IMG/VR virus record: IMGVR_UViG_3300044632_002016
Location: 1 to 41,386 of that record
From: a virus
Direction: 5' to 3' (one strand)
Length of the DNA stretch: 41,386 nt
The first letter of the stretch is position 1, and every line of letters begins with the position of its first letter. Below the pieces are notes generated by a model that did not search any database, was not told the DNA's origin, and saw only the letters and a program-made list of their open reading frames with translations. Shown here one piece after another: positions 5,708-40,050 of the stretch. Both the position numbers and the translations under genes were made by a program.

Positions 5708-6651
5708 AGGCCACGCCCTACCGCACCGTCCGCGATGGCGTCATCAGCCGCATGGGCATCGACCCCGCGCAGCCGCTCATGGCTTCTCAAGCCACGGCGC
5801 TGGCGGAGTATTTGACCACCGCTGCCGCGACGGCATGGACTTTCTTTGATTGGCCGGAGACGAACTACACCGAGAAGCGTGTTGTGCTGGGCACTGGCTT
5901 TGCCGAAGGAGGCTACACCTACGAGCACGATTACCAGGGCACGACCTCCTACATTGGCCGCGCTGTGCAGGGCTCGGAATTTTCCGACCTTGTGTGGCGC
6001 ATCAAGCGGGTGAGCACCACGACAAGCGGCGAGGTTTCCAATATCGACACCGCGCTCAATGTCGCGTGGAACGACCGCGCCACGGCAACCTATGTCGAGG
6101 ATTCCGGCAACGAGGCTCCCGAGGATGCGTTGCCCTACATTCCGCTCATCCAGACAGGCCAGACGCCTATCGGCAATGTTGTCGCGGTTTATTCCGACAA
6201 GCCGAGCGAGTATGCCATCACGCAGAAATTGGAGTTCGTCATCACCGGCGACAGCCTCGTCATCATCGACGAGAACTATGTCTCGGGTCCGGTGTATGTG
6301 GAGTTCTCGCTGCCTCAGCCAAAATTCACCAGCACCGCGTTCAACTCCTCCAACACCTACTCCGCTGGCGACCTCGTTTACTACAACTCGACCGGCGATT
6401 GCTACGAAGCCCTCGCCGACACGACCGGCAATCTCCCGACGAATGAGGAGTTCTGGCTACGCCACCGCATCCCCGCCTTCCTCGCTGATTACCTTAAATT
6501 TTACGCACTCGCCGAAACGCTTTCCGAGGACGGCCAGATGGACAAAGCCAACTACCAGTTCTCCCGCGCCGAAGGCATCCTGCAACAACGCATGGATGAC
6601 GCGTGGTTGAGAAAAGGCGAGGTCCGACGCTACTCCGCCAGCTTCCAATAA
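5704..6651 (+). CDS. Head-tail connector/adaptor-like protein
   Basis: A 315-residue protein translationally coupled to the portal by a four-base overlap. The N-terminus (residues 1-45) resembles podoviral adaptors that dock under the portal. The region around 215-260 is a small beta module with the pattern NTYSAGDLVYYNSTGDCYEA, reminiscent of carbohydrate-binding or chitin-binding-type modules found in phage proteins. The C-terminal ~60 residues are helical (residues near FLADYLKFYALAETL and ANYQFSRAEGILQQR), a layout seen in head-completion adaptors whose C-terminal helices contact the portal. A role as head-tail adaptor is likely; a sugar-binding role of the inner module is speculative. 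Confidence 0.65.
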   Translation: MKATPYRTVRDGVISRMGIDPAQPLMASQATALAEYLTTAAATAWTFFDWPETNYTEKRVVLGTGFAEGGYTYEHDYQGTTSYIGRAVQGSEFSDLVWRIKRVSTTTSGEVSNIDTALNVAWNDRATATYVEDSGNEAPEDALPYIPLIQTGQTPIGNVVAVYSDKPSEYAITQKLEFVITGDSLVIIDENYVSGPVYVEFSLPQPKFTSTAFNSSNTYSAGDLVYYNSTGDCYEALADTTGNLPTNEEFWLRHRIPAFLADYLKFYALAETLSEDGQMDKANYQFSRAEGILQQRMDDAWLRKGEVRRYSASFQ

Positions 6652-6691
6652 CCACCCCCTTGACACCCTCTCCCATAATAAAAATAACGAC

Positions 6692-6988
6692 ATGAGTAAC
6701 CCCACAATTCAGATCGCCGCCCGCAACACCGCTGGAATTGTCCAGCCCGTCCAAGCCACACCAGATGGGGCTCTGCGGGTGAGCACAGGTTTTCCCACTC
6801 CCGCTTATACGAAGTATGAAAATGTTCGTTTCACATCCCCCGCGACGAACAACACAAGCTATGTCGATTTCACTTTCAACGGCACCTCGGTAGCCCGAAT
6901 CGTGAATACCTATTTCGGAGCCAACCCCCCCACAGCAGACAACGCCGAACTCCGTAGCGCCGAGATTAAATTCCCGCCCTATACCTAA
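6692..6988 (+). CDS. Small beta-rich structural protein, 98 aa
   Basis: A 98-residue, Thr/Asn/Pro-rich protein without charged helices, probably all-beta. It begins MSNPTIQIAARNTAGIVQPV, which resembles small phage tail-associated or decoration proteins. The leader (CCCATAATAAAAATAACGAC) is AT/C-rich with no Shine-Dalgarno sequence. The stop overlaps the next gene's start by one base (TAATG). I cannot name its family. Confidence 0.6.
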   Translation: MSNPTIQIAARNTAGIVQPVQATPDGALRVSTGFPTPAYTKYENVRFTSPATNNTSYVDFTFNGTSVARIVNTYFGANPPTADNAELRSAEIKFPPYT

Positions 6989-15974: not shown

Positions 15975-16817
15975 ATGTCTGATATATCCACAGCGAGCGA
16001 AATACGCTTAGGCAGCCAAGCTGCTACGGAGGTTTGGTTGGGCTCGACTTTGGTATGGTCCGATTTTGTGAATCCGAAGAGCATCCCGGGCTTGTATGCA
16101 TGGTATGACTCTACGCAAGGGCTTTACTCGGCAACATCAGGCGGCAGTCTTGTCACGGCAAACGGTGCGGCCATCGCCCGCTGGGAAGACCAAAGCGGCA
16201 ACGGCAGACATCTCATTCAGTCCGATACTACCTATCAGCCAAAAATTCAAGCGTCCGGCCTCAATGGGAAAAATGTCGTTCATTTCACCAGCGATGTGCT
16301 GGTTTCCAATGCGGCCAATTGGGGATTGGGTCAGAACAAAGTGTTTTTCTTCTATGTGATTAAGTGGGACAGCCAGCCAGCAGACGCAACACTTATGCGG
16401 TTAAGCGACAGCGCCGCAGGGAATTTTGTATTTTTCAATTATTGGGACGGGGCCAGCTACTCATTTTATCCGCGCTTTTACACAAACGGCTTTTGGTCTC
16501 CAACTGTTGCTACTTCTACCATAGGCACGGCCTGGCAGTCGCAATATGTGCTGTTCCCGAGGGCGTCCAGTTTCCAGACATCCCTCTACAAAAACAACAG
16601 CCAAGTCGCCTCAATTAGCGCCAACGACAATAATATCAATTTCGCCAGCAACAGATACTTCGGCCTTGGAGCTAACATTACCACTGCGGCAGCCCCCAAC
16701 GGGAACTACTTCGACGGCAAAATCGCCGAGTTGGCCATCTACATCACCCCGCGATCCATGACCGACCGCGACCTCACTAACCTTACCAACTACTTTTCCG
16801 CAAAATGGGCAATTTAA
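15975..16817 (+). CDS. LamG/concanavalin-like lectin tail protein
   Basis: A 280-residue protein. The first 30 residues (IRLGSQAATEVWLGSTLVW) are a small attachment motif found in phage tail proteins. The rest is a LamG/concanavalin-A-like jelly-roll, recognised from SIPGLYAWYDSTQGLYSATS, ARWEDQSGNGRHL and the late KIAELAIYITPRSMTDRD. Such domains bind glycans, so this is a strong candidate for host-surface recognition. The DNA is somewhat more AT-rich than neighbouring late genes, suggesting recent exchange. Its end overlaps the SET-domain gene by 13 bases. Confidence 0.8.
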   Translation: MSDISTASEIRLGSQAATEVWLGSTLVWSDFVNPKSIPGLYAWYDSTQGLYSATSGGSLVTANGAAIARWEDQSGNGRHLIQSDTTYQPKIQASGLNGKNVVHFTSDVLVSNAANWGLGQNKVFFFYVIKWDSQPADATLMRLSDSAAGNFVFFNYWDGASYSFYPRFYTNGFWSPTVATSTIGTAWQSQYVLFPRASSFQTSLYKNNSQVASISANDNNINFASNRYFGLGANITTAAAPNGNYFDGKIAELAIYITPRSMTDRDLTNLTNYFSAKWAI

Positions 16818-17212
16818 CCCCCGCCCCCACCATGCTCCGCCCCGAGCCATACCACGCGACCAAGCTCGCCGTGCGCCGCTCTCCGTTGCACCGGTGGGGC
16901 GTCTTCGCCACGGCCCCTATTGCCAAGCACGAAGTGCTTGAGGAGGCCCCCTACGCCTGCGTGCCCAAGAAGCAACTCGCCAAAGCCCCAGCCTGCGAGA
17001 CCTACAGCTACTATCTCGACGACGCCACCAGCATCATCGGCTTCGGCCTCGCCCCCCTCTACAACCACCACGACACCCCCAACGCCTGCCACGAGATCGA
17101 CCAGGTAAACGAACTCATGCGGCACTACGCCCTGCGCGACATCGCCGCAGGCGAAGAGATCACCCTCAACTACGGCGCTGAAAACGCCAAGCACTTCTTA
17201 GAAAAGGAATAA
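16805..17212 (+). CDS. SET-domain protein (putative protein lysine methyltransferase)
   Basis: A 135-residue minimal SET domain. The three conserved blocks are visible: LHRWGVFATAPIAKHEVLEE (residues 28-47) with the GxG-like SAM-binding start, YNHHDTPNA (86-94) corresponding to the NHxxxPN motif, and RDIAAGEEITLNYG (111-124), the pseudoknot motif with the catalytic-type Tyr. Cysteine-rich pre- and post-SET modules are absent, as in small viral and bacterial SET proteins. SET enzymes transfer methyl groups from SAM to lysines of proteins; the target is unknown. The start may be ATG 16805 or ATG 16832, the latter avoiding overlap with the lectin gene. It lies within the virion-protein operon. 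Confidence 0.85.
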   Translation: MGNLTPAPTMLRPEPYHATKLAVRRSPLHRWGVFATAPIAKHEVLEEAPYACVPKKQLAKAPACETYSYYLDDATSIIGFGLAPLYNHHDTPNACHEIDQVNELMRHYALRDIAAGEEITLNYGAENAKHFLEKE

Positions 17213-17216
17213 TCCT

Positions 17217-19763
17217 ATGGCAATGAACATGAGCAACAGCGGCGGAGGAGGGGGAATGTCCGGCGGCGGAGGTGGCGGAGGTGGCGCGATGAGCGCAGCC
17301 CCCGCAATGAGCGCAGCCATGTCCGACAACAACATGGGCGGCAACGCCATGTCCGGCAACAACGCCATGTCAACAGGGTCAACAGGGTCAGCAATGTCCA
17401 ACGCCATGAGCGGCGGCAACAACGCCATGTCCGGCGGAGGAATGTCCAGCGGCGGCATGGGTATGGGCATGAGTGCTCCGCCAGCCCCGCAGCAGCGCAG
17501 CCTCGCCGACGAGATGGCCGCGATCTCAGGCTATGCCCAAGCAAACGCCCAGGCTCAAGCCAACACCACCGTCGATACCGCAGACCGCCTCAGCGATCAG
17601 GCCATTGAGAACACCGGCGACATTGCGCAAAGACTCCAAGACAGCACCTACACCGCCGCCGCCAACCAAAACATCCGCGACGCCGGAACATCTGCCGCCC
17701 AGCTCGGGCAAAGCTACAACCAAGTCGGCCAGACTGCCGACCGTGTAGCCGCATACAACGACCCCGCCCAAGCCCGGTTGAACCAAATGGCCCTCGGCCA
17801 GCTCTACCGGCCCGACCAGATTTCCTCCCAAAATGTCGCCGCCGACCAAGTGACCGGCTCTCGCGTTGCTAATGTGGGCCAGATGGACTACGCCCGCCTC
17901 GGCCAAGTTGCCGATGTCCAAGGCCCAGCAGGCTACACGCCTGACCAAATCCGCGCCCAACGCATCCGCGCCGCTCAAGCGGGGGCCGTGGCCGATGTCA
18001 ACGCCCAGCAAATAAACGCCGCCAGCACCGGAGGCATCGAGCGTGTCGGAGGCACACAGGTATCCTCGGTGGACCCCATGCAAGCCGCTCGCATCCGCCG
18101 CACGCAGGATGTCGCATCCCGCGACATCCGCGCCAGCGCCGCCGAGCGTGGCCTTATGGATGAAGCCCGAGGCAATGGACTCTATGGGCAACTCCGCGAT
18201 CAAGCCAGCAACGACCTCGCCCTCGGCCGGTCCCTCTCCGCCGAGCAAAGCCGCGACGCAATCCAATCTTCCCGCGCCGCATCCTCCGCCCGTGGACTCG
18301 GCCTCGGCCAATCCGCCATGGCCGCCGAGCTTCTCAACCGCGACCGCTTCGCCACCGCCAGGGAAAACGAACGCCGCACTTTTGCTGGCAATGTCCTTGG
18401 ACAAGGCACCGCCGTCCAGCAAGCCGCCAACCAAGCCTACATGGGCCGCCAAGAAAGCAATGTCGGCCGCTCACTCCAAGCAGGGCTCGCCAACCAATCC
18501 GTCGCTGCCAACCGATCCCTACAGCAAGCCCAGCTCCAGCAGCAGGCCAACCTCACCACCAACCAAAACGAACAACAGCGAGTGCTCGCCGAGGCCGGTT
18601 ACGCACAACAGGCCGGTCTTTCCAACCAAAGCTTGGGTTTCCAAAGCGCAAGTCAGGATGCTCAATTTTCCCAAGCCGCAGCCCTGGCAAACCAAGACGC
18701 CTCACTTCGAGCCGCTCTGGCAAACCAATCTGCGGGTCTCACATTAGGCCAAACAAACGCCCAGCTCTTACAGCAAAGCCGCCTCGCCAACCAATCTGCC
18801 GGTCTTCAGGCGCAGCAAGCCAACCAAGCCGCCAACGCCCGCGCCGCTGAGTTTCAGCAGCAAAGCGGTCTTCAAGCCTCCTTGGCAAACCAGCAAGCCG
18901 GACTCTCCCAAGCCGCCGAGCAGGCCCGCCTGCAACAAACCGCTATTGGCGCGTCCTACGACGCATCCCAACAACGCGCCATGGCCGATGCAGGCTACGC
19001 CCAGCAGGCCAACCTCGCCAACCAAGACGCCAATCTCCGCGCCGCCCAATACAACAGCAGCCAAAACCTCGCCGCCCAGCAGGCGAACCAATCGGCCAAC
19101 TACAACGCTAACTACGCCAATCAAAATTTCCTCCAAGGCGTCGCGTCGCAGAACTTCAACCAATTTTCGGGCCAGCAAAGCATGCTCGGATCCCTTTACG
19201 GCCAGCAAGCAGGCATCGCCCAAAACCAATACGCCAACAACCTCGGCCTCGCCCAAGCCAATGTCGCCCTCGACCCCTACCAACGCGCCCTCGGATCAAA
19301 CATCCCCATAGCCAGCCAAGGCAACGCCGCCAATATGATCGGCACAGCCTACGGCCAGACCATGAACTACGGCAGCGACCTCTTCAACACGAACACGAAC
19401 ATGCAGGCGTCGATCTACAACAGCTTCCAAAACAACCAAGCCTCGTTGCAAGGAGCCCGCTTGCAAGCCGGTGCAAGCGCAGCCGCTGGACAAAGCGGCA
19501 TGATCGGAAGCATTGCTGGTGGTGCTGGAGCGGCAATCGGCGGAGCGGCTATCGCTGCCGTGTGCTGGATCGCTCGAGCGGCATTCGGCTTAGAGACAGA
19601 TCGCTGGCAAAAATTCCGACGCGCCATGCTCCGCCATGCCAGCGACCGCACGATCCGGCTCTACTGCCAGCATGGTCAATCCATCGCCGCCACTCTCACC
19701 ACCCCCCTCCGTCGCCTTGCGGCTCGACTCACGCTCCGCTCGCTGGAATTTGCATGGAAATAA
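17217..19763 (+). CDS. Internal virion (ejection) protein, Met/Gly- and Gln-rich
   Basis: An 848-residue low-complexity protein. Residues 1-85 are a Met/Gly/Ser/Asn region with repeated AMS and GGGMS units. Residues ~95-350 are Ala/Gln/Arg-rich. Residues ~420-640 are imperfect repeats built on ANQ(S/D)AGL and QQAN. Near residues 755-780 there is a Gly/Ala-rich hydrophobic stretch (GAGAAIGGAAIAAV), followed by a distinct C-terminal domain beginning CWIARAAFG at residue 783 and rich in Arg/Lys, a pattern seen at the end of phage internal virion proteins. I read it as an ejection protein that enters the host envelope with the DNA. Its last ten bases overlap the start of the YcaO gene, so the two are translationally coupled. 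Confidence 0.7.
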   Translation: MAMNMSNSGGGGGMSGGGGGGGGAMSAAPAMSAAMSDNNMGGNAMSGNNAMSTGSTGSAMSNAMSGGNNAMSGGGMSSGGMGMGMSAPPAPQQRSLADEMAAISGYAQANAQAQANTTVDTADRLSDQAIENTGDIAQRLQDSTYTAAANQNIRDAGTSAAQLGQSYNQVGQTADRVAAYNDPAQARLNQMALGQLYRPDQISSQNVAADQVTGSRVANVGQMDYARLGQVADVQGPAGYTPDQIRAQRIRAAQAGAVADVNAQQINAASTGGIERVGGTQVSSVDPMQAARIRRTQDVASRDIRASAAERGLMDEARGNGLYGQLRDQASNDLALGRSLSAEQSRDAIQSSRAASSARGLGLGQSAMAAELLNRDRFATARENERRTFAGNVLGQGTAVQQAANQAYMGRQESNVGRSLQAGLANQSVAANRSLQQAQLQQQANLTTNQNEQQRVLAEAGYAQQAGLSNQSLGFQSASQDAQFSQAAALANQDASLRAALANQSAGLTLGQTNAQLLQQSRLANQSAGLQAQQANQAANARAAEFQQQSGLQASLANQQAGLSQAAEQARLQQTAIGASYDASQQRAMADAGYAQQANLANQDANLRAAQYNSSQNLAAQQANQSANYNANYANQNFLQGVASQNFNQFSGQQSMLGSLYGQQAGIAQNQYANNLGLAQANVALDPYQRALGSNIPIASQGNAANMIGTAYGQTMNYGSDLFNTNTNMQASIYNSFQNNQASLQGARLQAGASAAAGQSGMIGSIAGGAGAAIGGAAIAAVCWIARAAFGLETDRWQKFRRAMLRHASDRTIRLYCQHGQSIAATLTTPLRRLAARLTLRSLEFAWK

Positions 19764-20929
19764 TCAAACATCGCGCAGATGGCGCTCACCGCGCTTGCAC
19801 CCCTGAGCAGACGCTTGAGCGCATGCGACCGCATTTCCACGCCGCAGGCATTACCCGCCTCGCCGAGATCACCGGGCTGGACCGCATTGGCATCTGTGTC
19901 GCCCAGTGCATCCGGCCAGATGCCATCGTGCTGGCCGTGGATTCTGGCAAAGGAGCCACCCCCGCCGCAGCCAAGTGCTCGGCCATGATGGAAGGCTTCG
20001 AGCGCCATGTGGGCGAGACAAGCCATGTCCCTCACTTTACGGCCGCCGCGAGCAGCCTCGGCCAAAGCGCCGAAACGCGACTGCCTCTTCTAAATGGGGC
20101 GGCATTCAATCCAAATATCCCAATCCGCTGGGGCATCGCGCAGGGAATAAAAAGCGGGGCGGCAAAACATCTCCCCCTTGCAGCCATACATCTCACTGCC
20201 CGTGGACCCGCTGACGAACCATTGGCGGCATCTATGTTTTCCTGCACCAGCAACGGACTATCTGCCGGGAATACCTATGCAGAAGCAATCTGTGGCGGGC
20301 TCTACGAAGTCATCGAGCGCGACCAAGTGGCCATAGGCATGGAAAACCCACAGCCTGTGCCGCGTGTTGATCTCGACACCATCACCGACAGCACCTTGTC
20401 TGGCATTGTCCGCCGCCTGCGACAGGCCGACCTCATGCCTGTGCTCTTCGATTGCACCTCTGATATCGGCGTGCCGACTTACACGGCTTATATCTACGAC
20501 ACAGAAGAGCGTGGAGTCGGATTCTACCGAGGCTACGCGGCACACCTCGACCCCGCTGTCGCTCAGTGCCGGGCATTGTGCGAAGCAATACAAGGACGCC
20601 TTGTTTATATCGCCGGAAGCCGCGACGACATCTTGCACGAACGCTACCAGGCAACGAAAGACTCCGACACCGCTCATAATCTGGGGCGACTCCTGGCAGT
20701 CAAAGATGTCGTCTCAAGCCGCGCCCACCCAGACCGATCAGGCGACACCTTTGAAGAGGATATCGACACCCTTCTGAGCCTACTCGCCGCCGCCGGCATC
20801 CCCGAGCCGCTCGTCCATGAGTTCACCCATGATTACCCTTGCAGCGTCGTGCGAGTCATCATACCGACCCTTGAAGGATACTACAACCGACACATAGCGC
20901 GTGGATCCCGCGCCAGGAGGAACGCATGA
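19754..20929 (+). CDS. ycaO: YcaO-domain protein (thioamide/azoline-forming ATPase family)
   Basis: A 391-residue stand-alone YcaO protein. YcaO enzymes use ATP to activate a peptide-bond amide: cyclodehydratases make azolines, and TfuA partners make thioamides. The family blocks are clear: SGKGATPAAAKCSAMMEGFE (residues 64-83), SNGLSAGNTYAEAI (166-179) continuing into YEVIERD (184-190), and HLDPAVAQCRALCEAIQGRL (264-283) followed by AGSRDD (287-292). The Glu-containing blocks form the ATP-Mg site. The C-terminus is VVRVIIPTLEGYYNRHIARG (365-384) and lacks the PxPxP tail of azoline-forming YcaOs, fitting the TfuA-associated class. It starts inside the end of the ejection-protein gene and overlaps tfuA by four bases. 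Full length, with no disruption. Confidence 0.93.
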   Translation: MEIIKHRADGAHRACTPEQTLERMRPHFHAAGITRLAEITGLDRIGICVAQCIRPDAIVLAVDSGKGATPAAAKCSAMMEGFERHVGETSHVPHFTAAASSLGQSAETRLPLLNGAAFNPNIPIRWGIAQGIKSGAAKHLPLAAIHLTARGPADEPLAASMFSCTSNGLSAGNTYAEAICGGLYEVIERDQVAIGMENPQPVPRVDLDTITDSTLSGIVRRLRQADLMPVLFDCTSDIGVPTYTAYIYDTEERGVGFYRGYAAHLDPAVAQCRALCEAIQGRLVYIAGSRDDILHERYQATKDSDTAHNLGRLLAVKDVVSSRAHPDRSGDTFEEDIDTLLSLLAAAGIPEPLVHEFTHDYPCSVVRVIIPTLEGYYNRHIARGSRARRNA

Positions 20930-21918
20930 AAATCTTTATCGGCCCCACTCGCCCCGGCAATATCCCTGCCGATGCCGACATACGCCCTCCAGCGCAGCAA
21001 GGCGACATCGCCGCCGCCGCTCTCGAAGGTCTAGATACCATCCTCCTCATCGACGGCCTCTTTCACCAAAGCCTCGCCCCATGGCATAAGGAAATCCTCT
21101 TCGCCATCGAGCGTGGCTGCCGCGTCATCGGCGCAGGAAGCCTCGGCGCACTCCGCGCCGTCGAGTGCGCTCGCTACGGAGCCGAGCCTGTCGGCGTCAT
21201 CGCGGGGTGGTATGCCGATGAGTCCTGCACCGACGATGCCGATGTAGCCCTTGCCCACGGCCATGCCGAAGACGGCTACCGCCCGCTCTCCATTCCGCTC
21301 GTCAACCTCCGCGCCACAGCAGAAGCTCATATCGACGAAGCCGGTCACATCCTCGCCGTTGCCCGCTCCATCTACTACCCCGAGCGCACCTGGCAGCGCC
21401 TCCGCCGCGACCTCGGCGATGTGGTGGATATCCTGCAAGCACGCTACATCGACCAGAAAGCCCTCGACGCCGAGGAAGCTATCCGCCACGCCCAGCATGT
21501 CGCCGCTCCCATCCGTTGCGATACCCCTCAGCACATCCACACGGCACATCTCCGGGCTTTGCTTGACAACGATCTTCCAACTCCCGCAGGCCGCACCTAC
21601 ACGCTTTTCCCAGACGCCCAGCGCCAAGCGGCGACGGATGCCAGGCTACTCGCCGAGCTCGCCCAAGCGGCAGGCATCACCATCACGCCTCACGATATCA
21701 TCCAAGCCTCCCGCAGCATGTGGAATCGGCTTGGCATACAGGACGAAAAGACCGCCTCAGATTGGCTTTTAGAAAACCAAATCCCCGAAGCTGCATGGAC
21801 CCAAGAGTCTATGAACGAAGCCCTGCGCACAGCCGCACGCAACTGGCTCTCCTCTGCAAGTAATTCGTTCGACGCTATACCCATCACAAAACTCCACACA
21901 ACAATCCACCCCTCATAA
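20926..21918 (+). CDS. tfuA: TfuA-like protein, YcaO partner
   Basis: A 330-residue protein with the TfuA core: IGPTRPG at residues 5-11, IDGLFHQ (42-48), HKEIL (54-58), GAGSLGALRAVE (69-80) and a Asp-rich TDDADVALAHGHAEDGYRPL (102-121). TfuA proteins partner with YcaO in thioamide synthesis, for example thioglycine in methyl-coenzyme M reductase and thioviridamide-like peptides, possibly by supplying or handling sulfur. The C-terminal half is helical and less conserved. The ATG at 20926 overlaps the ycaO stop (ATGA) and has a good AGGAGG just upstream, so expression is tightly coupled. The next virion-associated gene follows after three bases. Confidence 0.93.
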   Translation: MKIFIGPTRPGNIPADADIRPPAQQGDIAAAALEGLDTILLIDGLFHQSLAPWHKEILFAIERGCRVIGAGSLGALRAVECARYGAEPVGVIAGWYADESCTDDADVALAHGHAEDGYRPLSIPLVNLRATAEAHIDEAGHILAVARSIYYPERTWQRLRRDLGDVVDILQARYIDQKALDAEEAIRHAQHVAAPIRCDTPQHIHTAHLRALLDNDLPTPAGRTYTLFPDAQRQAATDARLLAELAQAAGITITPHDIIQASRSMWNRLGIQDEKTASDWLLENQIPEAAWTQESMNEALRTAARNWLSSASNSFDAIPITKLHTTIHPS

Positions 21919-27245: not shown

Positions 27246-27460
27246 TTGTCAATTTTCCAATAAATCGGAAACCATTGACACTTTCAGTAGGTAAAAAAGT
27301 GGGTTCGAATCCCACCTCCTCCGCTCTTTTGAGTGTCAATGCAAGAGTGTGCAAAATGCCCGCAAAGGTAGACTGGGCGGGGGTTGGCGGCGATTGAAGG
27401 CGATTGCAAAAAATTGGAAGAATTTGCAAAAGTGTCAATGGATGTCAATGATGTGTCAGT
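27246..27460. other. attP: Phage attachment site (attP) with tRNA 3' end and arm-type repeats
   Basis: Bases 27299-27323 reproduce the T arm (GTGGG, TTCGAAT, CCCAC), the acceptor 3' strand (CTCCTCC) and a discriminator G, as in the 3' end of a serine-type tRNA. No complete tRNA can be folded here. Around it are copies of TGTCAATG: an inverted CCATTGACACTTT (27272-27284) is the exact reverse complement of AAAGTGTCAATGG (27429-27441), and further copies lie at 27331-27341 and 27442-27450, with TTGTCAATT near 27246. These look like integrase arm sites flanking a core in which the phage restores the tRNA end upon integration. The integrase starts at 27461. Confidence 0.75.
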
Positions 27461-28471
27461 ATGAATTTACAGGCTCTGATTCCACGGTTTGACCGAAAGT
27501 TGGCGCGGTGGGTGATCGACATCCCGAAGGCGCTGAATGGCGGAAAGCGTCGGCGGATGTTTTTCAAGGACGCGGCGGATGCTAACAAGGCTCACGCGGA
27601 GCTTGTTTTTTCGCTGGCTCATACGGGCGAGATTCCGTCGAAGGCGGAGGATGGCGAGACGGTGGCTCATTTTGTGGCGGCGTTCCTTGCCAAAAAATCT
27701 GTGGAGGTGGAGCCGGTCACGCTGCGCCAACTTAAGTGGGGCCTTCTTAAATTTTCGGATGCGCATGGCAAGAAGCGGCCGGAGGACTTGGATTCGGTGG
27801 CGATGCGCAGGTGGGTGGACAAGCTGCCGCTCACGACTCGCGGGAGGTTCAATGTTTTTGCAGTGTGCCGAGATTTTTTCTCGTCAACTGCCATGCGGGA
27901 GAGGGTGAGCCATAATCCGTTTTCTGACGCACCGCCGAAGAAGGACAAGGGGTCGCGCTTGCCTATCCTCACGGTGACGCAGATGAGGGCTCTGCTGGAG
28001 CATGAGTGGCCGGAGTGGTTTCGTGCTTGGTTGGTTGCGGGAGCATTTGCGGGCCTTCGGACGCGGGAGATTTTTTCGATTCCGGCATCGGCGATTGACT
28101 TTGAATATGACGAGATCGTGATTCGCCATGAGGATGCCAAGCAGGGCGAGGCGGCGAGGCCGCGCTCTGCGACGATCTACGAGGCGTTGCGGCGGCACAT
28201 GCCTCGCCGAGCTGCGGACAAGCCGCTGGTGGATGGGTGGAGCAAGAAACGCTGGAAGCCTGTGATCCGCGAAGCCTGCGAAGTAATCGGCGTGGATCCG
28301 CTGGAATGGCCGGCGAACTGCCTGCGGCATTCTTTTGCGAGCTACCACCTGGCGCACTTCAAGGACACGGTGACGACGGCGTTTCTCATGGGCACATCGC
28401 CGCGCCTCTTATACGAGACTTATGCCAATCAAGTATCGAGGCGCGACGCGGCGAAATGGTGGGAGCTGTAG
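27461..28471 (+). CDS. int: Tyrosine recombinase/integrase
   Basis: A 336-residue integrase for site-specific insertion at the adjacent attP. It has an N-terminal arm-binding and SAM-like core-binding region (residues ~65-155) and a catalytic domain from about 165. Visible catalytic residues are Arg200 in AGLRTREI, Arg289 in the CLRHSFASY box, Trp/His-type positions replaced, and nucleophile Tyr321 in MGTSPRLLYETYANQV. The usual His of the HxxR box is Asn286, and the Gly-His of the last box is Gly-Thr (Thr312), a variation reminiscent of some integrases in Planctomycetota-Verrucomicrobiota. It converges on the minus-strand lipoprotein gene, only one base away. Confidence 0.92.
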   Translation: MNLQALIPRFDRKLARWVIDIPKALNGGKRRRMFFKDAADANKAHAELVFSLAHTGEIPSKAEDGETVAHFVAAFLAKKSVEVEPVTLRQLKWGLLKFSDAHGKKRPEDLDSVAMRRWVDKLPLTTRGRFNVFAVCRDFFSSTAMRERVSHNPFSDAPPKKDKGSRLPILTVTQMRALLEHEWPEWFRAWLVAGAFAGLRTREIFSIPASAIDFEYDEIVIRHEDAKQGEAARPRSATIYEALRRHMPRRAADKPLVDGWSKKRWKPVIREACEVIGVDPLEWPANCLRHSFASYHLAHFKDTVTTAFLMGTSPRLLYETYANQVSRRDAAKWWEL

Positions 28472-28472
28472 T

Positions 28473-28868
28473 TTACCGCTGCGAGAGGGCGAGTGGCTTA
28501 GGATTTGGATAGAGGTGGGCGTGCGGGTGGATGAAGGCGACTTTTCTGGGGGGAGTAGCGGTGGTGAAGAAATGTTGTTCCTGGGAGGTGCCGTCCCAGA
28601 AGCGGGCTCGGAGGATTTGCACGGGGTTGCCGTTGAGGGGCCAGCCTCCTTGGTAGCAGCGCTTGAGCTCAAGGGTGCAGGGGGTAATGCCTACCACATC
28701 GCCGTTGAGGTCGACCATGGCGCCGTAGGGGAGGGTGTGGATTTCGACGGTGCGGTCGCTGTGCTTGGCTTCCCAGGCTTTTTTGCTGGCCTCAAGGTCG
28801 ATGGTGCTTTTAGTGGCGCAGCCGCTCAGGAGCAGGGCGAGGGCGCAGAGAGTTAACAGAGTTTTCAT
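28473..28868 (-). CDS. Lipoprotein with PEGA-like domain
   Basis: A 131-residue minus-strand lipoprotein. A hydrophobic signal (residues 4-17) ends in the lipobox LLSGC, then a short helical linker and a small beta domain with LPYGAMVDLNGDVVGITPCT, which resembles PEGA surface-layer domains, and RARFWDGTSQEQHF. The ATG at 28868 is preferred because it places the signal peptide at the N-terminus; a longer in-frame start at 28943 is possible. It lies seven bases after the RHH gene on the same strand. In a lysogen it would probably be expressed, and it could be a surface-altering or superinfection-exclusion protein. This role is inferred from position only. Confidence 0.75.
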   Translation of the reverse strand: MKTLLTLCALALLLSGCATKSTIDLEASKKAWEAKHSDRTVEIHTLPYGAMVDLNGDVVGITPCTLELKRCYQGGWPLNGNPVQILRARFWDGTSQEQHFFTTATPPRKVAFIHPHAHLYPNPKPLALSQR

Positions 28869-28875
28869 GGCGAGG

Positions 28876-29226
28876 TCAGGTCGATGACTTGCGCCGTCCA
28901 GCCTTCTGGTAGCGGGCCGTCGTAGCTGTTGATAATCCACCATCTAAGGTCTCTGTGGAGGGCCGGATCAAGTTGTTCTGGGGCGTATGAGGGTCCTCAT
29001 TGAGCCGGTAAGATGGCATGTCGGGCATGGCTTGGCCGAATATTTTAGATTTGCGATCTTCTTCCATCATGGTGCGAATGGCTTTCTGAACCATTTTAGA
29101 AAAATCGGTGGGGCAGTAGGCGTTTTCTGGTTTGGCGTTGTGCTCATCGACCATTTTTTTCAAATAGTCGTAGAGCTCTTTCGGCATCGAGATGTTTACT
29201 TTTTCTGATGCGGTTTTCGTTTTCAT
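28876..29226 (-). CDS. Ribbon-helix-helix DNA-binding protein, probable lysogeny regulator
   Basis: A 116-residue minus-strand protein. The N-terminus (KVNISMPKELYDYLKKMVDE) is a ribbon-helix-helix (CopG/Arc-type) fold: a beta strand followed by two helices, with the second helix around DFSKMVQKAIRTMMEE. The C-terminal half is Pro/Thr/Arg-rich and probably disordered. It starts at ATG 29226, divergent from another RHH gene, and the spacer has three copies of AGTAGCACC. No cI-like repressor is present elsewhere, so this is the best candidate for the prophage repressor. An antitoxin role is less likely because no toxin is visible. Confidence 0.75.
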   Translation of the reverse strand: MKTKTASEKVNISMPKELYDYLKKMVDEHNAKPENAYCPTDFSKMVQKAIRTMMEEDRKSKIFGQAMPDMPSYRLNEDPHTPQNNLIRPSTETLDGGLSTATTARYQKAGRRKSST

Positions 29227-29384
29227 GCTCCTACCAGTAGCACCGATTGCCACCGAGTGCAAAATATTTTTTCGCCCTGCGCTCCTTTATTTATGCGGGT
29301 GTCAAGTGTTTTTTTCGTATGGGGCGATCACCCTATTTATTTTTTTTCTTTACCGAGTAGCACCAGTTTTATTCAGTAGCACCC
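29227..29384. promoter_or_regulatory. Divergent switch region with repeated operator motif
   Basis: This 158-bp AT-rich spacer separates two divergent RHH genes. It contains CAGTAGCACC at 29235-29244, GAGTAGCACC at 29355-29364 and CAGTAGCACC at 29374-29383. The last two are spaced 19 bp, near two helical turns, and the final copy ends one base before the ATG at 29385. A GGGCGATCACCC imperfect palindrome lies near 29325. On the minus strand TTGACA (29300-29305) could be a -35 element, but no good -10 follows. The repeats are probably RHH operators. Confidence 0.65.
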
Positions 29385-29558
29385 ATGCAAGGTGCATATG
29401 TAAAAATCTCAGTGAGTCTGCCGGACGAGGTCTACGGGTTCCTCAAGGCGAAGAGTAAAGCGGGGGCAACTCCGGTGAGTCGGTTGGTGGCTCAAGCTGT
29501 GGGCCGCATGGCCGAGCGGGATGCCAAAACCAAAAGCAAGGGGAGGGCGTCGAAATGA
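29385..29558 (+). CDS. Small RHH protein, Cro-like counterpart
   Basis: A 57-residue protein beginning MQGAYVKISVSLPDEVYGFL, a beta strand plus first helix of a ribbon-helix-helix fold, with the second helix TPVSRLVAQAVGRMAE. It ends in a basic tail (KTKSKGRASK). The start codon directly follows a copy of the AGTAGCACC motif and has no Shine-Dalgarno sequence. Opposite strand and similar fold to the 28876-29226 gene suggest a Cro/repressor-type pair. The stop overlaps the next gene (ATGA at 29555). Confidence 0.7.
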   Translation: MQGAYVKISVSLPDEVYGFLKAKSKAGATPVSRLVAQAVGRMAERDAKTKSKGRASK

Positions 29559-29728
29559 AGCCGGGATATTTGAGACCCGAGGAAGCGGCCCAATACCTCT
29601 CAGTCTCACTAAGCACTATCTACAACAAGAAGCGGGCCGGGCTTCTCAAATTCTACAAATTTGGCGGCTCGACCTTGCTCAAGGTGAGCGAACTCGACGC
29701 GGCTGTTGAAAAGGGAGTCCAGGAATGA
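29555..29728 (+). CDS. Helix-turn-helix excisionase-like protein
   Basis: A 57-residue protein starting MKPGYLRPEEAAQYLSVS, a HTH_17-type winged HTH (helix, turn at SVS, recognition helix STIYNKKRAG), followed by KFYKFGGSTLLKVSELD, the wing and last helix. This is the usual layout of phage excisionases and MerR-like regulators. It overlaps both neighbours by four bases. An excisionase role would fit with the integrase about 1 kb away. Confidence 0.75.
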   Translation: MKPGYLRPEEAAQYLSVSLSTIYNKKRAGLLKFYKFGGSTLLKVSELDAAVEKGVQE

Positions 29729-29877
29729 AGACGCCACGACTCTACCTGTGTGAGGGCTACGACCCTTTGTTTGGGCCGGTGCGGCACATGATCCAGGCAT
29801 GCGGGTTTAGCGATGCTCGGACGAAATTTTACCACCTGCATGGCATTCAAGCCCTGCATGTCTCGCTGGAGAGATAA
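29725..29877 (+). CDS. Hypothetical protein, 50 aa
   Basis: A 50-residue protein (MKTPRLYLCEGYDPLFGPVR, then a helical segment HMIQACGFSDARTKFY and HLHGIQALHVSLER). It overlaps the excisionase stop by four bases, which supports it being translated, but no family is recognised. Confidence 0.5.
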   Translation: MKTPRLYLCEGYDPLFGPVRHMIQACGFSDARTKFYHLHGIQALHVSLER

Positions 29878-29882
29878 TTTTT

Positions 29883-30005
29883 ATGGAACACGAAGTCATA
29901 ATTAGACAACTGCAGTTCGCGTGGGAGTTTCTCCGCGCTATCGGCCCAGCCGTTGTGCTGGGGGTCGCAACCTACTGGGTCACCACTTGGGGGGAGGCAC
30001 GATGA
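29883..30005 (+). CDS. Small membrane protein, 40 aa
   Basis: A 40-residue protein with one hydrophobic segment (FLRAIGPAVVLGVATYWVTT). It overlaps the next gene's start (ATGA at 30002). Single-pass early phage proteins of this kind can act on host membrane processes, but the function is unknown. Confidence 0.5.
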   Translation: MEHEVIIRQLQFAWEFLRAIGPAVVLGVATYWVTTWGEAR

Positions 30006-30262
30006 GCGCTTTTTATGTCACCGACACTGAGGCTCGAAAAATCGGCATGCTTGACATGTTTGGGCCCTACGAGACCCGTGCGGCTGCGGAGGCTTTTATC
30101 CGCAAGGATTTTGCTGACTGGTGGGAAGACTCAGAAACACCGCTAAAAGATCGGGATGAATCTGCATGTGGGACTTATCAGATTCTTGAACTGGTGGCCG
30201 AGGTGAGGCCGGTCGGCACTGCGTCGCTCAAGGTGAAACTGGTGGAGGAGGCCGCGAAATGA
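30002..30262 (+). CDS. Hypothetical early protein, 86 aa
   Basis: An 86-residue protein of mixed alpha/beta character (MSAFYVTDTEARKIGMLDMF, then GPYETRAAAEAFIRKDF and YQILELVAEVRPVGTASLK). The pattern 'GPYETRAAAEAFI' resembles short phage proteins of unknown function. It is chained by four-base overlaps to both flanking small genes. Confidence 0.6.
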   Translation: MSAFYVTDTEARKIGMLDMFGPYETRAAAEAFIRKDFADWWEDSETPLKDRDESACGTYQILELVAEVRPVGTASLKVKLVEEAAK

Positions 30263-30408
30263 GCGTGACGCTGGGGATATCTATCGCGCTGCTGACGCTG
30301 GGTTCGTGCTTTGCGAGCTACTGCTTGGGCCGCGAGTCGATGCGCTCAGACATACGGGATTTCCATGAGCGGCGGCGCCGCTGGGAAGAATTTGATGACG
30401 AGGATTAA
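30259..30408 (+). CDS. Small membrane protein, 49 aa
   Basis: A 49-residue protein with an N-terminal hydrophobic segment (LGISIALLTLGSCFASYCLG) and a highly charged C-terminus (DIRDFHERRRRWEEFDDEDE-like). It is the last of the small overlapping genes before the ATPase, from which it is separated by four bases. Function unknown. Confidence 0.5.
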   Translation: MSVTLGISIALLTLGSCFASYCLGRESMRSDIRDFHERRRRWEEFDDED

Positions 30409-30412
30409 AATT

Positions 30413-31345
30413 ATGAAACTGAACATAGTAACAGGAAAACTACAACGCGCCCAGCGGGTCTGCGTTTATGGGGTCGAAAGCGTGGGGAAGACTACGCTGG
30501 CGGCCAAGATGCCACAGCCGGTCTTTTTGGATGTGGAGAAGGGGACGGCGCACCTCGATGTGCCTCGCCAGGAGATCGGGACTTGGGCGGAGCTGCTGGA
30601 GGTGGTGCGGGAGCTGGCCTCGGGGAGCTATGGCTACAAGACGGTGGTGCTGGATTCTATCGATTGGGCGGAGCGCCTGTGTATCGAGGACTTGAAGGCG
30701 GAGAAGAAGATCAAGTCGCTGGAGGAGATTCCGTATGGGAAGGGCTTTACGATGGCCTCGGAGCGGATGGCTCGTTTTCTGAACGATCTGGACCGGCTCA
30801 TCGATGCGGGAATCCATGTGGTGCTGATCGGTCATGCACAAGTCAAGCGGGTGGAGCCGCCTGATCAAGTGCAAGCCTACGACCGCTATGAGCTGAAGCT
30901 CATCAAGCAGACGGGGCCGCTGGTGAAGGAATGGGTGGACCACCTGTTTTTCCTTAACTTCAAAACCCGCATCGTCGAGTCGGAATCCGGCAAAGCCAAG
31001 GGCCGAGGCGGCAAAGAGCGGGTGCTCTATACGACGCACACGGCGGCCTACGATGCGAAGACTCGCTCGGAGCTGGCGGATGAGTTGCCTCTGGACTACG
31101 CGAGCATCTCCTCGCTCTTCGGGCCGGTGAAGACTCCGGTGGCGGCTGCGGCTCAGGCTTATGCGGCGGCTCAACCTCTGGAGACTTACCTCGAACCCCA
31201 TGAGCAGGCTGTGAATGCCTGGCTTTTGGCGAAGGGCAAGATCACCGAGGGGCAGACTTGGCGGGATATGCCGCCAGCGCTGCGGGACCAGGTATCGGCG
31301 AGGCCGGAGGATTTCCTACAAGCGGTGGCGAAAGCGGCTGCGTGA
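30413..31345 (+). CDS. Sak4-like / AAA_24 phage ATPase
   Basis: A 310-residue RecA-like P-loop protein. Walker A is GVESVGKTT (residues 20-28) and Walker B is KTVVLDSID (76-84) with Asp81, in the layout of phage nucleotide-binding proteins of the AAA_24/Sak4 class. Sak4-type proteins act in phage recombination, promoting ssDNA annealing with an SSB partner. The C-terminal ~90 residues are Ala/Gln-rich and helical, perhaps a DNA- or partner-binding tail. An SSB-like gene (32702) and a Cas4-like nuclease (31595) are in the same operon, which fits a recombination or replication module. ATG 30413 is chosen over upstream in-frame ATGs, which would overlap the membrane gene. Confidence 0.8.
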   Translation: MKLNIVTGKLQRAQRVCVYGVESVGKTTLAAKMPQPVFLDVEKGTAHLDVPRQEIGTWAELLEVVRELASGSYGYKTVVLDSIDWAERLCIEDLKAEKKIKSLEEIPYGKGFTMASERMARFLNDLDRLIDAGIHVVLIGHAQVKRVEPPDQVQAYDRYELKLIKQTGPLVKEWVDHLFFLNFKTRIVESESGKAKGRGGKERVLYTTHTAAYDAKTRSELADELPLDYASISSLFGPVKTPVAAAAQAYAAAQPLETYLEPHEQAVNAWLLAKGKITEGQTWRDMPPALRDQVSARPEDFLQAVAKAAA

Positions 31346-34075: not shown

Positions 34076-34795
34076 ATGATAAACAACATAAGTATAGATG
34101 CAGAGTTTCAAAACCTTATTCGACCGCTGTCGGATCAGGAACGGGCGGAGCTTCGGGACAGCCTGTCAAGGTGCGGGTTATTGTCCCCACTTATTATTTG
34201 GAACAACGAAGGCAAAAACATTCTGGTTGATGGTCATAACCGCCTCTCGTTGTGGAAGGAGTTCAATGGGTTCAACGATGAATATGAGCTTAAAACCCAA
34301 GAACTTCGTTTCGGCAACAGGGACAAAGTGAAAGAGTGGATCATCAAGAACCAACTTGGGCGCCGGAACCTTTCGCCGGATGATTACAAACTCCTCGTTG
34401 GGATGCTTTACAACCAGAGGAAAAAGGCAGCTCCAAACCCTGATGGGAAAAACCAGCATTCCGAGGTTAAGGGCCAAAATGGCACTCAACAATCAACAGC
34501 CGAACAAGTAGCCGAAGAAACGGGGGTTTCTCCAAGAACGGTCAAAAGGGCCGCAAAACTCGCCGCAAAAGTTGAGGAAATCCAGCAGGCCGAGCCGGAG
34601 TTGCCGAGGCAGGAAGTCATCACCAAAGCGAAGGAGATCATCGCCGAGGCCGCTCCTAACCCTGAGCCACCCAATCGTTCGTTGGATGAAATGCTCGCCG
34701 AGCGTTGGAATCGGTTCATCAAAGACATCCCCGTAACAGACCACACCGCCGTGCGGTTGTGGGTCACAGCAAAACTCAAGGAGGCCGCGCTATGA
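34076..34795 (+). CDS. ParB/Srx-fold nuclease-like DNA-binding protein
   Basis: A 239-residue protein. Residues 1-62 match a ParB/sulfiredoxin-fold domain: ALR-like helices, GLLSPLIIWNNEGKNIL, and the signature VDGHNRL (51-57). Residues ~138-162 form a helix-turn-helix (TAEQVAEETGVSPRTVKRAA), and the C-terminus is a helical acidic region. This architecture can bind DNA and, with CTP, load as a clamp; it could also act as a regulator. The gene begins a stretch with more AT than its surroundings and overlaps the GHKL gene by four bases, so the two probably act together. Confidence 0.8.
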   Translation: MINNISIDAEFQNLIRPLSDQERAELRDSLSRCGLLSPLIIWNNEGKNILVDGHNRLSLWKEFNGFNDEYELKTQELRFGNRDKVKEWIIKNQLGRRNLSPDDYKLLVGMLYNQRKKAAPNPDGKNQHSEVKGQNGTQQSTAEQVAEETGVSPRTVKRAAKLAAKVEEIQQAEPELPRQEVITKAKEIIAEAAPNPEPPNRSLDEMLAERWNRFIKDIPVTDHTAVRLWVTAKLKEAAL

Positions 34796-37625: not shown

Positions 37626-37639
37626 ATATGTTTTTACTA

Positions 37640-37815
37640 CCTCCGCAAAACCTCCGCAAAACCTCCGCAATATTCCAATTCTGCGGAGCATGGATGACCT
37701 CCGCAAAATTACCTCCGCAAAATCCCCCTAAGAAGGGGGGATTGTTTTGCGGAGGAGTAATTTTTCGGAGGGGTCATTTCCAACCATCAAAATCCGCAAA
37801 ATAGATTATGCGGAG
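37640..37815. promoter_or_regulatory. ori: Iteron cluster, putative replication origin
   Basis: The motif CCTCCGCAAAA is repeated: three copies with 11-bp period at 37640-37650, 37651-37661 and 37662-37671, and two more at 37698-37709 and 37712-37723. Inverted copies occur at 37682-37688 (TGCGGAG), 37745-37755 (TTTTGCGGAGG) and 37809-37815, and a variant (TTTTTCGGAGGGG) at 37761-37773. A direct partial copy is at 37793-37802. A hairpin (AATCCCCC with GGGGGATT) lies at 37721-37744. The array follows directly after the helicase gene. This is the classic arrangement of an iteron-type origin bound by an initiator; which phage protein binds it is unknown. Confidence 0.75.
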
Positions 37816-39468: not shown

Positions 39469-39802
39469 CACGCCCGAGACGGACGCGCTGTATGCGCAAA
39501 TGCTGGCCGAGAACCCCGGCAACTTCATTCACCTTGAGGAGTTTTTGGAACTGGCTTGCCGACTGGAGCGGGAGAGGAATGAGGCGCTGATGGATCGTGC
39601 CTCTGGAGACATTGCCACCATGACGCGCAACCACTACGAGCGCGTTATCAAAGAGCGCGACGAGGCGAGGGAATTGTTACGCATTTTGGCCGGTCTTGTT
39701 GCCTACGGCCTTGGCCAGTCAGGTGAGGAGTGGTCGCTGGAGGCCATGCGCCAAGCGACGGCTGCGATTCAAAATGCAAAATTTTTGGAGACAGCAAAAT
39801 GA
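39461..39802 (+). CDS. Hypothetical coiled-coil protein, 113 aa
   Basis: A 113-residue protein. It begins MSDTPETDALYAQMLAENPG, a start shared with many phage proteins of unknown function, followed by a coiled-coil region (LELACRLERERNEALMDRAS; YERVIKERDEARELLRILAG). It has no recognised catalytic residues. GGAGG lies close before ATG 39461. It overlaps the zinc-ribbon gene by four bases. Confidence 0.6.
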   Translation: MSDTPETDALYAQMLAENPGNFIHLEEFLELACRLERERNEALMDRASGDIATMTRNHYERVIKERDEARELLRILAGLVAYGLGQSGEEWSLEAMRQATAAIQNAKFLETAK

Positions 39803-40050
39803 CCTGCCCCACCTGCCAATCTGCCACCCGAGTTGTATCCTGCCGTTCTGTTGGCGATGGGTTCATTCGTCGGCGCCGGTGTGAGAACGACCACCGTTTC
39901 AACACCGCCGAGGTCTCGCACCTCGGCCCCTTTCCCTGGGCAAAGAAAACCGCGACCAAGCCCACCAAGCGCCCCAAACGCACCCGCAAGGCCAAGTCTG
40001 TGACCTCCGATTGGATCACCCGCATTAACGACAAGCTCGCCCCCCTATGA
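39799..40050 (+). CDS. NrdR-like zinc-ribbon protein, 83 aa
   Basis: An 83-residue protein whose N-terminus (MTCPTCQSATRVVSCRSVGD, then GFIRRRRCENDHRFNTAE) reproduces the zinc-ribbon of NrdR (CPxC, SRxxxxGxxIRRRRxC, FxTxE), but the ATP-cone domain is absent. The remainder is Lys/Arg-rich (KKTATKPTKRPKRTRKAK). It could bind DNA as a transcription regulator or packaging accessory. It overlaps the TerL start (ATGA at 40047-40050). Confidence 0.7.
   Translation: MTCPTCQSATRVVSCRSVGDGFIRRRRCENDHRFNTAEVSHLGPFPWAKKTATKPTKRPKRTRKAKSVTSDWITRINDKLAPL

Follow-up and report, generated by a model that had tools for sequence, protein, structure and literature searches.

Lysogeny repressors are usually sought by their HTH or S24 signatures, so phages whose switches are built from ribbon-helix-helix (RHH) proteins are likely to be counted as repressor-less or virulent. 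In the lambdoid switch, both CI and Cro belong to the HTH class, with an S24-type C-terminal domain in CI, and the two bind shared operators in opposite order of preference and so decide between lysis and lysogeny; the two repressor genes diverge, repeated sites lie at both promoters, the Cro-side operon leads to the early genes, and the cassettes are exchanged. RHH proteins take part in the control of other viruses. The immI region of phage P22 has two small RHH genes, the longer mnt running leftward (minus strand) and the shorter arc running rightward (plus strand) at a distance of 90 bp as the first gene of its operon, with the antirepressor gene ant, which the region controls, behind arc (AF217253). 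Arc works during lytic growth and also acts on itself, and Mnt, in lysogeny, blocks the synthesis of Arc and of the antirepressor (PMC7549136). The immI region is a second immunity region beside c2, which encodes an HTH repressor with an S24 domain and belongs to the independent c2/cro switch (PMC8022706; PMC6550527). Pf filamentous phages carry a single Arc-family RHH gene close to genes for an excisionase and a repressor, in most cases with a separate repressor C gene alongside; a role in the lysis-lysogeny decision has been suggested for the Arc-family gene (PMC7549136). In the archaeal fusellovirus SSV1, the RHH protein F55 keeps lysogeny via repeats at the early promoters and at its own (PMC5569661).

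Here, we analyze a divergent pair of RHH genes in virus record IMGVR_UViG_3300044632_002016, the whole of which (41,386 bp) is referred to below as the window. From the sequence, we put at roughly 0.78 the probability that two paralogous RHH repressors make up the primary immunity region, or lysis-lysogeny switch, of a temperate phage at this locus.

RESULTS

Gene organization around the divergent pair

A terminase gene spans both ends of the record, as expected if the window is a complete phage genome in circular permutation, which is most likely the case. Almost all of its genes run rightward; in a reading of the open reading frames made with no gene caller, the left RHH gene and a lipoprotein-like gene downstream of it were the leftward exceptions recognized (Table 1). 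Two divergent RHH genes around a 158-bp spacer had been proposed in the initial annotation, and both open reading frames and the spacer length were confirmed. The left start codon, an ATG at 29226, is conserved in relatives.

Table 1. Features of the RHH locus and its surroundings (window positions)
Feature	Position	Strand	Description
Proposed attP core	27299-27323	+	25 bp, identical to tRNA-Ser 3' end; just ahead of integrase
Tyrosine integrase	27461-28471	+	PHROG integrase, 3.4e-22
Lipoprotein-like gene, PEGA domain	28473-28868	-	PF08308, 2.1e-4; downstream of left RHH gene
Left RHH gene	28876-29226	-	116 aa; RHH domain at about residues 8-60, then low-confidence tail; proposed lysogeny (CI/Mnt-like) repressor
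Spacer between divergent RHH genes	29227-29384		158 bp
Putative leftward promoter	29234-29262	-	TTGCAC 29262-29257, 17 nt, TACTGG 29239-29234; 7 nt before ATG
AGTAGCACC copy 1	29236-29244	+	Proposed left operator; other alleles carry allele-specific sequence in same place
Central spacer block	29271-29335		TGTCAAG and neighbors; partly conserved across alleles in alignments while outer sites vary
Putative rightward promoter, tentative	29348-29375	+	CTTTAC 29348-29353, 16 nt, TATTCA 29370-29375; 9 nt before ATG; found by eye
AGTAGCACC copy 2	29356-29364	+	Proposed right operator 1
AGTAGCACC copy 3	29375-29383	+	Proposed right operator 2; 19 bp after copy 2
Right RHH gene	29385-29558	+	57 aa; proposed Cro/Arc-like repressor; first gene of early operon
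HTH_17 excisionase-like gene	29555-29728	+	PF12728, 1.3e-10; PHROG excisionase, 3.6e-6; start overlaps right RHH stop
Sak4-like recombinase	30413-31345	+	PHROG 124, 2.6e-50; Pfam AAA_24; same rightward operon as right RHH gene

When 388 genomes from the phylum of a Verrucomicrobia MAG were sampled, 4 carried an exact match to the 25-bp attP core in tRNA-Ser; in the relatives examined, an identical or almost identical motif stands ahead of the integrase. An integrase together with a tRNA-derived attP is what marks an integrating temperate phage, and with its tRNA-Ser-derived att site this phage is very probably temperate. Integrase relatives in genomes came from Verrucomicrobia, Opitutaceae, and Puniceicoccales MAGs and one Lentisphaerae MAG; they were mostly 24 to 36% identical, with one 31-residue fragment at 65%, and no close prophage was found among them or in the 388 genomes. 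The hosts of this family of uncultured phages are probably Verrucomicrobiota. Searching 50,697 phage records by tblastn with both RHH proteins returned nothing, and the portal protein had only relatives of 22 to 30% identity among named phages.

The position of the RHH genes fits an immunity region, with the integrase and attP on one side and the operon of the excisionase-like gene and Sak4 on the other. Behind the right RHH gene, the operon holds the HTH_17 gene, a 50-amino-acid open reading frame with no family, small open reading frames, Sak4, a PDDEXK/DUF2800 protein, and a DUF669-like protein, and no antirepressor family appeared among its Pfam and PHROG matches. The PEGA lipoprotein-like gene on the other side has a weak Cor-like PHROG match (1.9e-3), probably to the signal peptide only, and is a candidate lysogenic or superinfection-exclusion gene.

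The same surroundings bear on whether the RHH pair could be a plasmid-type control of copy number or partition, as with CopG, omega, and ParG, in a phage able to persist as a plasmid. We regard this as very unlikely, since the integrase and att site favor integration, the Pfam and PHROG matches include no ParA-like gene beside the pair, and the pair heads an excisionase-like/recombination operon. What speaks for plasmid-type control is that RHH proteins serve partition, in phages as well (PMC6669507), and that the window holds a ParB-like gene (34076 to 34795) and an iteron-like region (37639 to 37806). The latter consists of many ACCTCCGCAAA copies on both strands in the gap after an AAA_25 (DnaB-like) gene, and it is a candidate replication origin.

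Other genes of the window deserve mention in their own right. At 19562 to 21918, a YcaO gene (PF02624, 1.1e-66) stands ahead of a TfuA gene (PF07812, 4.1e-31). Such a pair, which modifies backbones or peptides, is unusual for phages; it is present in two related genomes (G005 and G004) and absent at the same place in a third (G001). A small SET-domain protein (16805 to 17212; PF00856, 2.2e-13) brings a eukaryote-like methyltransferase domain into a phage, and an NrdR-like zinc-ribbon protein (39730 to 40050; PF22811, at the curated cutoff) is encoded just ahead of the large terminase gene.

Two paralogous RHH proteins

The right protein matched an Arc-like repressor in PHROG (1.3e-3). In its family, Pfam RHH_5 was found in 15 of 18 members (best, 4.8e-5), along with matches to RHH_3, RHH_1, and RHH_4; the window's own right protein scored 17.6 bits in the Pfam RHH search, under the curated cutoff. 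Its AlphaFold model (pLDDT 85) retrieved mostly RHH folds from the PDB, among them CopASO, ParD2, CdbA, Arc, CopG, and SvtR, with TM scores of 0.6 to 0.8 for the better ones and E values that are nonsignificant for a 57-residue query. The left protein alone gave no confident family match in profile searches, and RHH_1 was found in 4 of the 18 members of its family (best, 1.1e-3). Comparison of the left profile with the right one gave 98.2% (E value, 3.8e-14), which identifies the two as paralogues, and tblastn cross-matches between left and right of about 1e-4 to 1e-7 were obtained in several relatives. Both proteins can thus be placed in the RHH (MetJ/Arc) superfamily, the right one firmly, by the Pfam models in most family members and by its fold matches, and the left one by its paralogy in the profile comparison.

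Sequence-profile searches of solved structures gave no convincing RHH match for these proteins. Comparison by hhalign with Arc and Mnt gave probabilities of 25% and 20%, respectively, which are weak, in the expected register. Chains of this superfamily have a beta-alpha-alpha order, and the ribbon, which needs an RHH dimer, does not show in the monomer models. The left model has a pLDDT above 85 for residues 11 to 60 and below 50 for residues 70 to 116, and a fold search with it was uninformative because of this low-confidence tail. The 50-residue tail (28876 to 29035), modeled as disordered, is near-identical between phages whose RHH domains are only about 25% alike.

RHH antitoxins dominate the fold matches, and such antitoxins autoregulate via repeats of the kind described below, so that one could see here two unrelated, autoregulated small regulators of the toxin-antitoxin type with no role in lysogeny. 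The left and right proteins, however, are paralogous and evolve together, and no toxin adjoins either gene, the neighbors being the lipoprotein and HTH_17 genes; we consider this explanation extremely improbable.

Repeated sites and putative promoters in the spacer

The initial annotation had noted three copies of a repeat in the spacer, and AGTAGCACC indeed has exactly three copies in the whole 41,386 bp, all of them within the spacer and in one orientation. The last copy had been described as touching the right start codon, which is nearly so; it ends one base short of the ATG, and exact contact is not made. Clusters of a 9-mer with three copies inside 160 bp arose at 0.017 per simulated genome (60 genomes, order-2 Markov, same composition), and the real genome has others at three places only, two of them within predicted genes (7.8 kb and 17.3 kb) and the third in the iteron-like region at 37.6 to 37.8 kb. 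Copy 1 is half of an imperfect inverted repeat, AGTAGCA-CCGAT-TGCCACC (29236 to 29254), the second half, TGCCACC, lying at 29248 to 29254.

In 13 of 17 alleles (shuffles, 0.35), the minus strand at the left edge of the spacer carries TTGnnn-N15-18-TACTnn, ending 6 to 9 nt short of the ATG; these alleles are related, and the count is a measure of conservation, not of independent events. TTGnnn...TAnnnn stands in the equivalent place before the right gene in most other alleles, less regularly than the left pattern, and the assignment of the putative rightward promoter is weak. A scan for the sigma-70 consensus from 28400 to 30500 returned no promoter, and conservation is what both proposed promoters are based on. 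The patterns lie a few nucleotides before both ATGs, so if these promoters are right, both transcripts would start close to the ATG. A hairpin at 29319 to 29336 was considered as a rightward terminator and rejected, as inspection by eye showed it disrupted in many alleles.

The AGTA of the left AGTAGCACC copy probably doubles as the leftward -10 element (TACTGG on the minus strand). This coincidence with the putative -10, seen in the same 13 of 17 alleles, might be taken to mean that the AGTAGCACC copies are mainly promoter elements and not operators. That is unlikely, considering that all copies have the same orientation and cannot all be the -10 of opposing promoters, and that GCACC, which this comparison suggests is the allele-specific part of the left copy, varies with the RHH allele and shows a matched change at the opposite end of the spacer.

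Exchange of the module among relatives

Four scans of viral contigs supplied the relatives, with many loci that have the divergent pair. The pair is kept in all close relatives, where the AGTAGCACC copies also stay in place, and in other relatives both DNA-binding domains differ. Contig 3300042561_001110 (L009/L023) encodes integrase, HTH_17, and Sak4 proteins 100% identical to those of the window, and the C-terminal tails of both RHH proteins are near-identical, whereas DNA identity drops to 36 to 75% from about 29021 to about 29510, between flanks of 90 to 100%. The breakpoints fall inside both RHH genes, near the ends of the RHH domains. In the places of the window's AGTAGCACC, its spacer has GATATGATC beside the right gene and the related words GATATGA/TCATATC at the left gene; GATATGATC has three copies in that genome, all in the switch. 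Mosaicism is widespread in the genomes of the relatives, with one small swap at about 30000 to 30250. A swap alone is ordinary in mosaic genomes; what is notable is that its limits match the two DNA-binding domains and the sites between them.

Over 17 loci, left-domain distances correlated with right-domain distances at an r of 0.87 (P = 0.0002), versus only 0.22 to 0.23 for comparisons with Sak4. The longest word common to both spacer ends gave 138, against a mean of 109 for permuted partners (0/20000), and 92 against 71 when the loci were collapsed to 11 alleles (3/20000); taken singly, the sharing was not significant in L028, L075, or L086. In locus L027, where the RHH pair is very different in sequence, the left start codon has one TGTGCACA palindrome, the vicinity of the right start has two, and a fourth lies between them. 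A lysine or arginine at the first contact position matches between left and right proteins across the alignable phage alleles, which is weak evidence of pairing because the arginine alleles may be one event and the pair in the Verrucomicrobia MAG nzgw610 breaks the match. The alleles seem to resemble heteroimmune cassettes, with members swapping a module that includes its DNA sites, and the fact that both DNA-binding domains move together with the intervening sites adds strongly to the case for an immunity switch.

Related arrangements were seen farther afield. Two more distant Sak4-bearing phages (L119, 356 to 1521, and L122, 657 to 1822) have a divergent RHH-like pair with a left protein of 262 amino acids, a hint that this layout extends outside the present lineage; little could be learned from most of the distant Sak4 relatives (from L100 on). 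Among integrase relatives, L039 has two tandem RHH-like open reading frames (1543 to 1934), and L041 has one leftward RHH-like open reading frame divergent from an HTH_17-like gene (6060 to 6744), RHH being assigned by eye in both. The nzgw610 MAG has its own divergent RHH pair (L155, G018:C18, 16731 to 17194) near the end of a 17.7-kb contig, along with an integrase-like open reading frame and a relative of the phage's AAA protein, and the contig is perhaps a satellite or other mobile element. Only 2 of 388 genomes sampled from the MAG's phylum gave a match, nzgw610 included.

Search for another repressor

The absence of a recognizable cI-like HTH repressor, part of the original proposal, held across 18 records, the window and 17 related ones, some of which are fragments: none had HTH_3 above the cutoff, and none had any Peptidase_S24 match, while both families were found in control genomes. 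These scans bear on the possibility that the pair is a secondary module like P22 immI, running a side function such as early-gene tuning or an unrecognized antirepressor, with another, unrecognized protein as the true immunity repressor. P22 itself is the precedent, many genes of the phage have no family, and the ParB-like protein of the window contains an HTH-like stretch. Against these points stand the HTH_3 and S24 results, the lack of an antirepressor family in an operon that instead holds the excisionase-like gene and Sak4, and the fact that the sole recognized leftward genes sit at the RHH locus. We give the secondary-module explanation a small chance and prefer a primary switch.

DISCUSSION

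That the locus is a lysogeny switch, as the initial annotation had suggested, finds support at the sequence level in the paralogous RHH proteins, the repeats at either spacer end, the position expected of an immunity region, and the joint swapping. We infer how it works, including the site preference of each protein, the direction of the effects, and lysogeny itself, as follows. The left protein, made leftward together with the lipoprotein, would hold the prophage silent by binding, as dimers, both right-hand sites and so covering the rightward promoter, from which the right RHH gene, the excisionase-like gene, Sak4, and the recombination genes would be transcribed. Via the left site, it would regulate its own promoter. 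The right protein would probably recognize the sites of the left one, or sites that overlap them; after commitment to lytic growth, it would act as Cro and Arc do, shutting first the left promoter and then its own. Induction by the lambda route is unlikely, since there is no S24 domain; the low-confidence tail of the left protein is, speculatively, a candidate for regulated degradation.

More broadly, it is reasonably likely that this is a phage lineage, probably of Verrucomicrobiota, that places its primary decision on a duplicated RHH pair with at least four to five interchangeable operator specificities and with transcripts that are perhaps leaderless. The specificities proposed are GTAGCACC; GGTAGCA-N5-TGCTACC and TTACTAC-N3-GTAGTAA; GATATGATC; GTATGACC with AGTAATAC; and TGTGCACA. 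With paired repressor and operator alleles in such close relatives, one could test the evolution of immunity specificity in proteins that contact DNA through a two-stranded ribbon, and also whether duplicating a repressor is enough to yield a Cro-like partner.

Comparison with known switches

The CI/Cro-like arrangement with an RHH fold on both sides that had been proposed for this locus is supported by the divergent pair and the repeats at both spacer ends, in a topology already known from P22 immI. With immI, the locus shares divergent small RHH genes around a short regulatory region, the longer gene leftward and the shorter one rightward as the first of an operon, with a spacer of 158 bp here and of 90 bp in immI. 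It differs from immI in having the excisionase-like and recombination genes, and no ant, behind the right RHH gene, and in that no c2-like gene was found in the 18 records. The lambdoid switches are matched in the divergence of the repressor genes, the repeated sites at both promoters, the operon leading to early genes, and, at the level of sequence, the exchange of cassettes, whereas the HTH fold and the S24-type domain are both absent. F55 of SSV1 resembles the proposed switch as an RHH protein that keeps lysogeny via repeats; SSV1, however, is an archaeal virus with a single RHH regulator in that role and tandem ATAGATAG repeats, and no paralogous, divergent Cro-like partner is described in PMC5569661. 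The Pf phages are similar in having an Arc-family gene near an excisionase gene and differ in being filamentous, with no divergent RHH pair described. In the literature, we found no bacterial phage with an RHH pair as its main switch, which is weak evidence of novelty given the limited coverage of subscription papers.

The locus thus lacks two defining features of immI, ant and dependence on c2, as well as the fold that defines CI/Cro, yet it would work like both. The divergent RHH topology is known, and the use of an RHH pair as the primary switch is apparently new. P22 immI shows this topology to be workable, and in the window it has apparently been promoted to the main switch.
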